A DNA stretch of 64,000 bases from NCBI GenBank assembly GCA_016932415.1, contig JAFGCX010000011.1:1-64000 (forward strand). Reading direction: 5' to 3'. The notes under the pieces were generated by a model, which was not told the DNA's origin, did not search any database, and saw only the letters and a program-made list of their open reading frames with translations. How positions within the stretch are numbered: position 1 is the first letter of the stretch; each line of letters opens with the position of its first letter. Both the position numbers and the translations under genes were made by a program. This stretch comes from Candidatus Krumholzibacteriota bacterium (GTDB lineage Bacteria; Krumholzibacteriota; Krumholzibacteriia; Krumholzibacteriales; Krumholzibacteriaceae). Positions 4 to 4,403 of the stretch are shown here, piece after piece.

Positions 4-79
4 TGGAGCGGGAAACGGGATTCGAACCCGCGACCCTCAGCTTGGAAGGCTGATGCTCTACCAACTGAGCTACTCCCGC
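4..79 (-). tRNA. tRNA-Gly (anticodon TCC)
   Basis: Read on the minus strand, this folds as a standard cloverleaf. The 7-bp acceptor stem pairs GCGGGAG with TTCCCGC, the D-loop contains AGCTCAGTTGG, the anticodon loop is CTTCCAA (anticodon TCC) and the T-arm contains GGTTCGAATCC. The 3' CCA is encoded (complement of 4-6). It is the last of three tRNAs transcribed together from the promoter at 455-483. In many bacteria a Thr-Tyr-Gly tRNA run precedes tuf, which would lie just beyond position 1; that is inference. Confidence 0.97.
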
Positions 80-128
80 TCATATCCCGCCGGTACCGGC
101 TTTCCGTAATACCTGCCGGGAAATACCG

Positions 129-213
129 TGGTGGGGAGGGGAGGATTCGAACCTCCGAAGGCTTCGCCGACAGATTTACAGTCTGTTCCCTTTGACCGCT
201 CGGGAACCTCCCC
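129..213 (-). tRNA. tRNA-Tyr (anticodon GTA)
   Basis: A class II tRNA with a long variable arm, read on the minus strand. The acceptor stem pairs GGGGAGG with CCTCCCC, the discriminator base is A and CCA is encoded. The anticodon loop CTGTAAA gives anticodon GTA (Tyr). The 85-nt length and extended variable arm are typical of bacterial tRNA-Tyr. It is the middle gene of the three-tRNA operon. Confidence 0.97.
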
Positions 214-338
214 ACAATCCTGTTTATTTCTTAAAGACCGCCGCAGCCTGATAAAGAAAAAAATTTCCCTATCAGCCGATTTTTTCATCGATTTTTCGTA
301 TTTTAAACGAAAAACCGCACCGGCCTCTCGGACTTCTT

Positions 339-415
339 TGGAGCTGGCGAAGGGAATTGAACCCCCAACCTACTGATTACAAATCAGTTGCTCTACCGGG
401 TTGAGCTACGCCAGC
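339..415 (-). tRNA. tRNA-Thr (anticodon TGT)
   Basis: A minus-strand cloverleaf with acceptor stem GCTGGCG/CGCCAGC, anticodon loop TTTGTAA (anticodon TGT, Thr), T-arm GGGTTCAATTCCC and an encoded CCA. It is the promoter-proximal tRNA, about 33 nt downstream of the predicted start site of the promoter at 455-483. Confidence 0.97.
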
Positions 416-592: not shown

Positions 593-621
593 TTGACGCG
601 CCTGGCCTGCTATGCTAGAAT
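593..621 (+). promoter_or_regulatory. Sigma70-type promoter of the exosortase island
   Basis: TTGACG at 593-598, a 17-nt spacer, then TAGAAT at 616-621, preceded by TGC (an extended -10). The predicted start near 628 gives a leader of about 285 nt before the ATG at 913. Between the tRNA promoter and this one (484-592) I see no gene. Confidence 0.75.
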
Positions 622-627
622 TCGGAT

Positions 628-912
628 TGTGGACAGTTGTCTCCAGGCCCTGAAAAAGGAGCTGTCCGGTTATACCTCACTTTGCTGGTAGAAGATAGAG
701 AACGGGAACGAGACCCGCCAGGGGTTGACCCGCGAGAGGAGGGCAGAAAAAACTAAATCCACGGGAAAGATCAACCTTCCAACCCTGAAGAACTGGATGT
801 GGATTGATTCAAATCCACGGTGAACCCTGCTTCAGGCCGATCAATCAACTGGAACCTGAAAAGGGATTGAAAGAAATATCCTTTTTCGATGTTGAATTTT
901 GGAGGAACAAAA
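628..912 (+). promoter_or_regulatory. Long structured 5' leader, unassigned (riboswitch-like)
   Basis: No coding signal is visible here, but complementary segments are dense. 631-636 pairs with 662-667 and, nested inside, 641-644 with 658-661. CGGG at 703-706 can pair with CCCG at 714-717 or with a second copy at 729-732. GTGGATT at 799-805 can pair with AATCCAC at 756-762 or with a second copy at 812-818. CCTGAAG at 784-790 pairs with CTTCAGG at 830-836 and encloses the second option. A last stem (AAAAGG with CCTTTT, about 859-886) lies just before the Shine-Dalgarno sequence. Two elements that each have two alternative partners look switch-like. I do not recognise a known riboswitch class. 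Confidence 0.45.
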
Positions 913-1848
913 ATGAAGAAGCTTATCGTACTGGCTGCGATGCTGGTTCTGCTTCCAGGTTTGCTCAATGCCGCTGAAATTACGCGAGAGGGCGATCCTG
1001 GATTTTTCTTTGGTTTCTATACCACCGCTAATGTGATCAGGGGCGAAACCTACTGCGACGAAGTTGCCGCCACGAACTTTGCCTGGATCTCCACATGTAA
1101 TACCGGTGCAGACACCTTCTGTCTCCACTACTGGGATGATCTCGGATGGCCGATCGTCGGAACGACCTTTGCCGATGGCGAATGCTTCATCGTTGGCGAC
1201 GCCAGCTACTATGTGGCTGAAGTCTGTATCACAGTCCCGTGCGACGCCGTAATCGGCCCCACGGGAATCAACAATCTCTGCGCTCACATGGCATACTGCG
1301 ATGTCAACATCGAATGCCAGCCCGACAGCGCTGACTGTATCGACCCGAACACCTATGGTGGCGGCGAGCAGTACAACGTTTCCTGCTGTGAGCTCACAGT
1401 CGTCGAGACACCGCCCTCCCTCTACGTGCTTCAGGATACCCTCTATCTCGTAGAGCAGGGTCTGACAGCCGCGTACATCCCGTTCTCACTCTGCAACGGT
1501 GATCCCTGCGCGCCTCCGTCCGACTATAACTGGGTCATCACGAGCACCGGCGTTGTTGGTCCCGCGATCAACCAGAGCGGTACCCTCGTCGGCGTTCCTG
1601 GCGGAAAGTGCCTCGATGTCTATGGTATTATCAATGCCGGCGCTGCGAACATCTGCGACTATGATGTCCTGACGATCATCGCCTGGGATCTTACCGGGTC
1701 GGTCTATGACACATGCGTCCAGGAAATCCATGTTGTAGAGCCTGTGCCAGTACCTCTCTTCTCGACACCTGTAGTCACGATCCTGGTTCTTGCCATGATC
1801 CTCGCTGCCGCTGTCATCATGAAGAGGACTGCCATAAGCAAGGCCTAG
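913..1848 (+). CDS. Secreted Cys-rich protein with C-terminal exosortase-type sorting signal
   Basis: A 311-residue protein starting at 913; GGAGG lies 7 nt upstream. An in-frame ATG at 889 has no such site and would put residues before the signal peptide. Residues 1-20 form a signal peptide ending near LNA-AE. The mature part has about 17 cysteines, many spaced like disulfide pairs, and no family I recognise. The C-terminus is a tripartite sorting signal: a short Pro-containing motif (PVPVPLFSTP), one hydrophobic helix and a basic tail (MKRTAISKA). This resembles the PEP-CTERM and IPTL-CTERM class but with a different motif. The exosortase gene follows after 29 nt, so this is probably its dedicated substrate, cleaved and anchored or released at the cell surface (inference). 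Confidence 0.8.
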   Translation: MKKLIVLAAMLVLLPGLLNAAEITREGDPGFFFGFYTTANVIRGETYCDEVAATNFAWISTCNTGADTFCLHYWDDLGWPIVGTTFADGECFIVGDASYYVAEVCITVPCDAVIGPTGINNLCAHMAYCDVNIECQPDSADCIDPNTYGGGEQYNVSCCELTVVETPPSLYVLQDTLYLVEQGLTAAYIPFSLCNGDPCAPPSDYNWVITSTGVVGPAINQSGTLVGVPGGKCLDVYGIINAGAANICDYDVLTIIAWDLTGSVYDTCVQEIHVVEPVPVPLFSTPVVTILVLAMILAAAVIMKRTAISKA

Positions 1849-1851
1849 AGA

Positions 1852-1874
1852 TAGTAAGTACTTGCTAACTTTTT
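1852..1874 (+). terminator. Weak hairpin plus T-run between substrate and exosortase genes
   Basis: A six-pair stem TAGTAA/TTGCTA (one G-T wobble) with loop GTAC is followed, after AAC, by five T residues at 1870-1874. It is too weak for full termination but could make expression polar, giving more substrate than enzyme. Confidence 0.35.
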
Positions 1875-1877
1875 GAC

Positions 1878-2489
1878 GTGAGGTATCAGTCTATTAATTT
1901 GGGCCACGGAAAGAAGCCAGAAGGTGAAGCGGGAGAAATCCGGAAAGGACGGTCTTTCCGGGGAGAGTTCATTACTTTCCTTATTCTCTTCTTTATCCTC
2001 TGGCTTTTTTCCTATATTCTCACTTTGAGGTTTCCCGGCTTTCTCGTCTCGGCAGGAAATTTCATCGCTTCAGAGATCGCCTGGCTGCTCTCGATCCTCT
2101 CTTACAGCCATACACTGAAAGATTCGACGCTTACCCTGTTTACCGCCCACGGGGGAGAACGCCTCGTGGTGATAGCCGAATGCACCGGGATCTATACGAC
2201 TATCATCTACCTGTCGATAGTAGGTTCGTACCCGGCGAGGATAAGTGAAAAACTGGCGGGACTTCTCATAGGTATTCCGGCGATACACATTCTCAATCTT
2301 ATCAGGATGGTCTTCGTAGCCCTCGTCCTCTATCATAAACGCGAACTTTTCGAATTCTTCCATGGATACCTCTGGCAGGGAAGCTTCCTGATTTTCATGC
2401 TGGTCCTTGTAGTCTTCTGGATGACAAAGATCGTCAAGCCCCGGAGGGCGCCTGACGCTAACGGGCCGGCTGAGGACGGATCGCCATGA
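1878..2489 (+). CDS. Exosortase/archaeosortase family transpeptidase
   Basis: A polytopic membrane protein of 203 residues. The family's catalytic triad is visible: Cys102 in ECTGIYT, Arg143 in NLIRM and His162 in FHGYLWQ, each next to a membrane segment. Exosortases cleave a C-terminal sorting signal of exported proteins at the outer face of the inner membrane. The short, single-domain form, without the EpsI-like extension of XrtA, resembles the XrtH-like small exosortases. The substrate gene directly upstream and the ATGA overlap with the next gene mark a dedicated three-gene unit. The start is uncertain: GTG at 1878 (TTG at 1899 is possible), and neither has a Shine-Dalgarno sequence. The residues before about 28 are hydrophilic and cytoplasmic. 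Confidence 0.85.
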   Translation: MRYQSINLGHGKKPEGEAGEIRKGRSFRGEFITFLILFFILWLFSYILTLRFPGFLVSAGNFIASEIAWLLSILSYSHTLKDSTLTLFTAHGGERLVVIAECTGIYTTIIYLSIVGSYPARISEKLAGLLIGIPAIHILNLIRMVFVALVLYHKRELFEFFHGYLWQGSFLIFMLVLVVFWMTKIVKPRRAPDANGPAEDGSP

Positions 2490-2980
2490 CGGCTGAAGGG
2501 CAGACCGAAAGAGACGGCAATGGGCAGAGCCTCCTGTGGTTCTTCCTCAGGTTCATAGCTGCTTCTCTCGCCCTTTTCGTGCTCCACATGAAAGCGGGAT
2601 TCATCTATATGCGGCTTCTCGCCTGGGGCGCCAGGCCCCTTCTCGCCATCTTCGGCCAGGAGATCATTATGGAAAGGGCCGAATCGATAGCGGCCGAGGT
2701 CTCGCTTAACCCGGCGGTATTCCTCTCTCTCGTGATCGCCCTTTCCGGAGTGGCGGCGAGAAAAAAGATCACGGCGGCGATCGTCGGTACGGCGATACTG
2801 ACCGCGGCAAACATCCTTACCGTCTTTCTTGTCTTTATGAGTTATTACATGAATAATGAAAAGCTCTGGACAGGCACGGAATTTCTCAATCTTACGATCA
2901 ACTTCTTCCTGCCCCTGCTGCTGTTTATCATCCTGATGCCGATAAAAAGACTTTTTTTTACCGATCCTTCGTCTCTTTGA
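2486..2980 (+). CDS. Small integral membrane protein, exosortase-associated
   Basis: 164 residues with four predicted membrane helices (about 15-35, 62-85, 94-120 and 134-156). It starts inside the exosortase stop codon (ATGA overlap at 2486-2489), so translation is coupled. No catalytic motif is recognisable. Small membrane partners are known next to some exosortases, notably the XrtH type, so a role as accessory subunit or chaperone of the sortase is likely but inferred. Its 3' end overlaps the convergent cysS gene by 23 bp. Confidence 0.7.
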   Translation: MTAEGQTERDGNGQSLLWFFLRFIAASLALFVLHMKAGFIYMRLLAWGARPLLAIFGQEIIMERAESIAAEVSLNPAVFLSLVIALSGVAARKKITAAIVGTAILTAANILTVFLVFMSYYMNNEKLWTGTEFLNLTINFFLPLLLFIILMPIKRLFFTDPSSL

Positions 2981-4403
2981 GCGCCGGCCCTTCAGCCCTG
3001 TCCTCGACGACATAGCCCAGCGCCAGTATCTCGCTCCGCAGCCGGTCGGCGAGCTCCCAGTCTTTTGACTTTCTCGCCTCTTCTCTTTTCTCGACAAGCA
3101 GGGAGACTTCCGCGGGTATCACCATCTCCGATCTCGGCAAACCTTCCCTGAAAAGCCCGAGTATCGTATCGAAAAGTTCGAAATGGCCGAGAAGCCTGCC
3201 TACCGCGTCCCGACCCGCTTCGGACATCCCTGGATTATCAGCCTTTATCCTGTTGATCTCCCTGACAAGCCGGAAGATATGACCGATAGCCTCACCGCTG
3301 TTGAAATCGTCGTCCATCGCCGCGATGAAATCTTTTCTCACCTCTTCGGCGAAATCGAGAAGTCTCGCGATCCCGTCTCCCGCCGTACTGCTTCCATCCT
3401 CAGGATCGTAGCGGGACAGCTCGTCGAGGTATACGCAGGTGTTCCTGATCCTTTCGAATCCCGATTCTGCTTCCTTCAGGCGGTCTCTGCCGAATTCCGT
3501 CCTGCTTCGGAAGTGGGTCGAGAGGAGGTAGAATCGAACGACCTCGCCCGAAAATTCCTGGCAGATATCCTCGATTGAGAAAAAATGTCCCGTCGACTTC
3601 GACATCTTTTCTCCGCGAAGGTTAAGAAGACCGTTATGCATCCAGTAATTGACGTAACTTTTTCCGGTCAGCGATTTGCTCTGCGCTATCTCATTCTCAT
3701 GATGGGGAAATACGAGATCCTGCCCGCCCCCGTGCATATCCACCGTCTCTCCAAGATACTTCATCGACATCACCGAACATTCTATATGCCATCCGGGACG
3801 GCCCCTGCCCCAGGGCGAATCCCAGGCCGGTTCACCCTCCTTGGCCGCTTTCCACAAAGTGAAATCGAGGGCATCCTGCTTGCTTTCCCCGATCTCTATC
3901 CTCGCTCCAGCCCTGAGATCATCTATCTTCCTTCCCGACAACTCACCGTAAAACGGGCACTCCCTGACCTTGAAATAAACATCCCCTCCCGATTCGTATG
4001 CCGCGCCGCTATCTATAAGCCTGCTGACCATATCGATGATATCTCCGATATGGTCTGTCGCCCTGGGATACCTGTCGGCGGGCAGGATGTTCAGTTCCTT
4101 TTCGTATTTGAAATATTCTCCGATATAACGCTCGGCGATCTCGCTGTATTCTTTTCCTTCTTCGTTCGCCCTCGCTATTATCTTGTCATCGACATCGGTA
4201 AAGTTCTGTATGTAGGTGACGTCGTACCCTGAATACCTGAGATACCTCTTTATCATGTCGCCGGCGACGAAAGCGAGCATATGGCCCATATGCGGTTTAT
4301 CCTGCACGGTCATCCCGCAGAAATAGATCCCGACCTTCCCCTCACGAACAGGCTTGAATTCCTCTTTTTTCCTTCGAAGCGTATCATAGACTTTCAGGAC
4401 CAT
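2958..4403 (-). CDS. cysS: Cysteinyl-tRNA synthetase
   Basis: 481 residues, full length. This class Ia synthetase charges tRNA-Cys. Visible motifs are the zinc and substrate site FCGMTV near residue 28, the HIGH-like box HMGH, WHIECS and HHENE (further zinc ligands) and KMSKS as GEKMSKSTGHF. It is the last gene of the long minus-strand block that starts at yicC. Its stop codon lies inside the 3' end of the convergent membrane protein gene. Having cysS downstream of ispD-ispF-gltX recalls the arrangement in Firmicutes. Confidence 0.97.
   Translation of the reverse strand: MVLKVYDTLRRKKEEFKPVREGKVGIYFCGMTVQDKPHMGHMLAFVAGDMIKRYLRYSGYDVTYIQNFTDVDDKIIARANEEGKEYSEIAERYIGEYFKYEKELNILPADRYPRATDHIGDIIDMVSRLIDSGAAYESGGDVYFKVRECPFYGELSGRKIDDLRAGARIEIGESKQDALDFTLWKAAKEGEPAWDSPWGRGRPGWHIECSVMSMKYLGETVDMHGGGQDLVFPHHENEIAQSKSLTGKSYVNYWMHNGLLNLRGEKMSKSTGHFFSIEDICQEFSGEVVRFYLLSTHFRSRTEFGRDRLKEAESGFERIRNTCVYLDELSRYDPEDGSSTAGDGIARLLDFAEEVRKDFIAAMDDDFNSGEAIGHIFRLVREINRIKADNPGMSEAGRDAVGRLLGHFELFDTILGLFREGLPRSEMVIPAEVSLLVEKREEARKSKDWELADRLRSEILALGYVVEDRAEGPALKETKDR

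Follow-up and report, generated by a model that had tools for sequence, protein, structure and literature searches.

Among described protein-sorting systems, XrtH (TIGR04177) with its IPTL-CTERM targets (TIGR04174) comes closest to the locus presented here. It likewise combines a small exosortase with a tagged protein nearby, and the membrane protein encoded downstream is a homologue of the one in our locus. Further points of reference are i) archaeosortase B/VPXXXP-CTERM (TIGR04144), whose VP...P motif is like the tag found here, ii) PEP-CTERM/EpsH (TIGR02595/TIGR02602), which follows the common general logic, and iii) dedicated sortase-type systems, defined as single-target, in which the genes for enzyme and target are neighbours (Haft and Varghese, 2011; PMC3237569).

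The three-gene island analysed here lies in a 64,000-nucleotide stretch (the window) from the genome of an uncultured member of Candidatus Krumholzibacteriota. It carries VPLF[ST]xP where the XrtH system has IPTLxxWG, and its enzyme reaches 72 bits against an XrtH cut-off of 86. Compared with archaeosortase B, the system is bacterial and its tag has four residues between VP and the closing P. The PEP-CTERM/EpsH type, which the same genome also contains, differs in enzyme subfamily, motif and locus, and dedicated systems have a single target where this one has two. We consider it likely, with good confidence, that the island encodes a protein-sorting system of the exosortase/CTERM kind, peculiar to a single order of Krumholzibacteriota, with a catalytically dead relative of the enzyme as partner and at least two targets.

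Layout of the island

All three genes (913-2980) lie on the plus strand in the order substrate 1, exosortase, partner (Table 1), and the positions from 593 up to substrate 1 hold only upstream non-coding sequence. About 50 bases separate substrate 1 from the exosortase, and the start of the partner overlaps the exosortase stop in an ATGA, through which the two genes are predicted to be translationally coupled. An earlier note on this DNA had proposed just such a gene set, a 17-cysteine protein with a VPLFSTP-helix-basic tail, a small exosortase and an ATGA-coupled four-helix protein, and this was borne out. The arrangement is not a matter of chance, because the exosortase occurs in 19 of the 20 genomes of the family and a VPLF-tailed open reading frame always ends just upstream of it.

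Table 1. Coordinates of the island and of the second target (window positions unless a contig is named)
Feature	Position	Strand	Remark
Substrate 1, secreted, 311 aa, 17 Cys, C-terminal sorting tail	913..1848	+	ORF 889-1848; start at 889 also possible
Tandem beta-sandwich domains of substrate 1	about residues 24-165 and 165-276		structure model
Signature motif VPLFSTP (family consensus VPLF[ST]xP)	1750..1770	+	17 tails compared
Hyperconserved tail helix VVTILVLAMILAAAVIM and basic end KRTAISKA	1771..1845	+	
Exosortase, Krumholzibacteriota clade, XrtH-like, below XrtH cut-off	1899..2489	+	probable start TTG 1899; GTG 1878 possible
Presumed catalytic Cys102 codon	2181..2183	+	invariant; numbered from GTG 1878
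Presumed catalytic Arg143 codon	2304..2306	+	invariant; numbered from GTG 1878
Presumed catalytic His162 codon	2361..2363	+	invariant; numbered from GTG 1878
Partner (membrane protein), probably an exosortase homologue that is catalytically dead	2486..2980	+	ATGA-coupled
Second target, papain-family protease, 735 residues	G000:C7:35483-37690	minus	

Downstream, a convergent gene on the minus strand (2958-4403) reads as a cysteinyl-tRNA synthetase on inspection of its translation, and the contig starts with three tRNA genes (7-415, minus strand). Between substrate 1 and the exosortase gene lies a conserved stretch, GGGCCAnGGAAAGAAGCCAGAAGGT. An RNA element at this place was rejected, as the stretch has no Rfam match and its core has no second copy in the genome at up to one mismatch.

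For substrate 1, ATG 913 is the better start, being preceded by GGAGG at 900-904. The protein has a hydrophobic N-terminus (its signal peptide was assessed by eye and hydropathy alone), exactly 17 cysteines and, towards the C-terminus, a single hydrophobic segment followed by a basic end. Together with the N-terminal signal, the order of motif, helix and basic end is that of a CTERM-type sorting signal. The structure model (mean pLDDT 78.7, built with 7 sequences) has two beta-sandwich domains, with the tail helix following them. Foldseek matches it best to RbmA of Vibrio and to further proteins with tandem Ig-like or FnIII-like domains, at low TM-scores. RbmA, which serves Vibrio cholerae as a biofilm scaffold protein (4kkp and others), also has two tandem beta-sandwich domains, but at TM-scores of about 0.25-0.34 and ~14% identity there is no evidence of shared membership or function, and we read these matches as indicating a type of fold only.

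The tail, its enzyme and their distribution

The tail of substrate 1 reads VPLFSTP-VVTILVLAMILAAAVIM-KRTAISKA. Across 17 tails, V8, P9, L10, F11 and P14 of the motif are invariant or nearly so, and alongside P-L-F and the second P much of the helix is invariant as well. A helix this conserved is unusual among sorting (CTERM) tails. Mean amino-acid identity is 82% in the tail versus 48% in the ectodomain, and the fraction of identical codons at conserved residues is equal in this comparison (0.54 and 0.56). Higher identity of the tail at equal synonymous divergence argues for selection on the peptide, so that the tail, helix included, appears to be under strong constraint at the protein level; a constraint on the DNA itself was rejected, since synonymous codons diverge as they do in the ectodomain. 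The tail is absent from the NCBIfam and Pfam models searched: neither substrate 1 nor the papain-family protease is matched by NCBIfam at E up to 1, and the tails of both are without a Pfam match.

Regarding the enzyme, the open reading frame spans 1878-2489, and conservation among relatives favours the TTG start at 1899. At the N-terminus (LGHGKKPEG, window 1878-1925), most genomes have a TTG start. Three loci (L004, L005, L007) lack an in-frame ATG, GTG or TTG there and may therefore use a rarer start codon. Cys102, Arg143 and His162 are all present and invariant across 21 homologues. With 56.6 bits against a curated cut-off of 23 (TIGR04178), the protein belongs to the exosortase/archaeosortase superfamily. 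Its best specific family is XrtH, at 72.2 bits, below the curated cut-off, to which a homologue fused with its partner (L018) comes closer with 79.3 bits; archaeosortase B follows second at 68.9 bits with a cut-off of 150. A sequence search of the PDB returned nothing, and the named relatives belong mostly to Candidatus Krumholzibacteriota or Krumholzibacteriia. In the tree, the Krumholzibacteriota clade stands apart from the XrtH loci, with weak deep support and long branches meeting, and for that reason the tree is given no weight in placing the enzyme. The exosortase probably cleaves and sorts the tagged proteins.

Tail and enzyme share their distribution. The exosortase clade is present in 19 of 20 family genomes and in two of five genomes of the sister family, with only remote relatives elsewhere. 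The earlier note had recommended searching related genomes for the exosortase and aligning the C-termini of its neighbours; done so, a VPLF-tailed open reading frame was found to end just upstream at all 19 family loci. A profile search of the genomes with a broadened tail profile gave strong matches (E < 1e-8) in 24 of the order's 25 genomes, whereas the 55 other genomes of the class gave none (best 0.004), and the exosortase clade is confined to the same order. This co-occurrence is confounded by shared ancestry, as all positives come from one order. In family f2 no tagged gene was found directly upstream of the exosortase, and three genomes (G014, G022, G024) have tails and no exosortase that we could find, two of them being only 82-84% complete. 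Many of the genomes have a contig end within the substrate gene that adjoins the exosortase (L003, L006, L008, L013, L014, L016, L018, L020), which may be caused by the repetition of ectodomain and tail in two target genes.

Target proteins and the membrane partner

The earlier note had taken the island for a one-substrate system, and here it has to be corrected. In its own genome the tail profile has two strong matches, substrate 1 and a 735-residue protein, and in related genomes up to three. With two tagged proteins found by the tail searches, a dedicated single-target system was rejected, and the system is therefore one of few targets rather than one. The second target consists of a protease domain (PF00112) with the papain Cys, His and Asn motifs in place (GTCW, NHG, KNSWG), a lectin-like domain (PF18560), an ectodomain of the substrate 1 type and the same kind of tail.

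As expected of a suffix, the tail is found on otherwise different proteins, although the two targets of this genome do share their ectodomain. In G020, a near-complete genome of family f2, the tail is joined straight to the protease, with no shared ectodomain in between, and tagged proteins of relatives include some with PKD or CARDB domains, among others (e.g., a tailed PKD protein in G007). Within our genome, ectodomain and tail of the two targets (window 913-1740 and L065, G000:C7:35483-37690) are 83% identical, compared with only 66-69% between orthologues in a neighbouring genus, which points to gene conversion or a recent duplication. In three genomes of the family, the protease gene has the same large genes for neighbours (loci L065, L066, L072, L076); two of these neighbours look by eye like an AddB/AddA pair and are kept in the sister family.

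The membrane partner that the earlier note had assigned to the exosortase is conserved, and its nature can be specified beyond what was proposed there. Its four hydrophobic segments follow the spacing of those in the exosortase, and its structure model is helical (mean pLDDT 83.6), without a Foldseek match in the PDB at E <= 0.001. Taken together, 18 partner homologues match seven NCBIfam families, of which five are exosortases or archaeosortases, and the archaeosortase D model matches nine of the 18 weakly. Compared as deep profiles, partner and exosortase align with a probability of 96.7% (E 3.3e-10, score 67.6), a result that requires more distant members selected by the analyst; 60 block-shuffled controls reached at most 25.7 and reversed ones about 17, and the Krumholzibacteriota alignments by themselves match weakly (probability 5%, E 0.0075). 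Cysteine is absent from 16 of the 18 partners, with one each in the other two, and the position of the exosortase arginine is, by eye, a threonine. Judged from these comparisons, the most probable reading of the partner is an exosortase homologue that is catalytically dead.

In Caldisericota and Coprothermobacterota, XrtH-like enzymes are followed by a membrane protein to which the partner is also homologous (probability 95.7%). At L018 enzyme and partner are fused in one open reading frame. A second exosortase of G007 (L027, 1387-2478, a 363-residue open reading frame) also appears, by eye, to be a fusion of an enzyme with a partner-like half. Accessory membrane proteins are mentioned as neighbours of XrtF and CrtB (PMC12188702), which does not imply kinship to the partner described here.

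Proposed mechanism and alternative explanations

Gene order, catalytic residues, conservation of the tail, co-occurrence, the second tagged protein and the profile homology of partner and exosortase are read directly from the sequences; recognition, cleavage, transfer with anchoring, and complex formation are what we infer from them. The tagged proteins would be exported by Sec and held in the inner membrane by the C-terminal helix, with VPLF[ST]xP at the outer face. The exosortase would recognise the motif together with the unusually invariant helix and cut near the motif through Cys102, assisted by Arg143 and His162, whereupon the protein would be passed to an envelope acceptor and thereby anchored at the cell surface. 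The dead exosortase relative would form a complex with the enzyme. In this way at least two proteins could be served, the adjacent tandem beta-sandwich protein and the distant papain-family protease, which carries the same module and tail.

The most serious alternative, possible if rather doubtful in our opinion, is a plain XrtH system with a drifted motif, so that VPLF[ST]xP would be a variant of IPTLxxWG without functional difference. XrtH is indeed the best-scoring specific family (72 bits), tagged gene, enzyme and homologous partner follow one another in the same way at XrtH-like loci elsewhere, and the motifs can be superposed ([IV]P-x-[LF]-S...), with the Caldisericota loci showing intermediate tails (PLPSLGWMG, AMPSMSWWG). 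Such intermediates point to an origin of the VPLF signal in a wider XrtH-like group. However, the enzyme stays below the XrtH cut-off, the tails retain neither the W nor the G of IPTLxxWG, and their helix is invariant. Moreover, the IPTL_CTERM model has no match in the genome at E up to 10, yet it does find the tails at two loci with XrtH-like enzymes (L024, L028). An identity of the tail with IPTL-CTERM or PEP-CTERM was rejected by these family-model searches. According to the earlier note, the VPLFSTP type is a different motif matched to this enzyme, an idea that would have failed for an XrtH-family enzyme whose known motif is widespread in the genome and missing from the upstream protein. 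Instead, the XrtH score is too low, IPTL-CTERM matches number zero and the upstream protein is among the tail matches. The comparison thus supports a distinct motif of this exosortase clade, and the proposal of a new motif-enzyme pair stands because of the XrtH score below cut-off and the lack of an IPTL-CTERM tail in the genome.

It is improbable that the tail is simply an uncut C-terminal membrane anchor, conserved by packing on the exosortase, the partner or another membrane protein. Such packing would fit a helix conserved far above the usual CTERM tail, but the layout of motif, helix and basic end, its spread as a suffix and the intact triad next door follow the pattern of a sorting signal. 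The same genome has a second exosortase of the EpsH type (L001, contig 7, 153274-153990), and just upstream (151157-152992) lie three PEP-CTERM matches over the cut-off, two of them clearly related; we regard this locus as a separate sorting system. That the EpsH-type enzyme (C7:153274) processes the VPLF-tailed proteins and the window enzyme has another role is very improbable, given that the former adjoins three PEP-CTERM matches of its own and that VPLF-tailed genes adjoin the window-type enzyme at 19/19 family loci.

Returning to the sorting system with its own motif and a degenerate partner, one may extend it: XrtH-type systems in general could be pairs of an active exosortase and a dead relative acting within the enzyme, e.g., by holding the substrate helix, and the order studied here would have coupled this pair to a new VPLF[ST]xP signal, with the helix itself being recognised. 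We hold this extension tentatively, at somewhat less than an even chance.

Our literature search found no exosortase report in this phylum, nor any paper joining Krumholzibacteri- with exosortase; many subscription papers lie outside that search, and a prior description is possible. With this system, sorting signals would gain a type that NCBIfam and Pfam, as searched, do not contain. The pairing of enzyme and target is unusually clear and testable, because the genome has only two tagged proteins, one of them beside the enzyme. If the partner is a dead exosortase, this provides a concrete hypothesis for accessory membrane proteins encoded beside exosortases. For the organism, having a papain-family protease among the proteins to be anchored at its surface suggests a role in the degradation of external protein.
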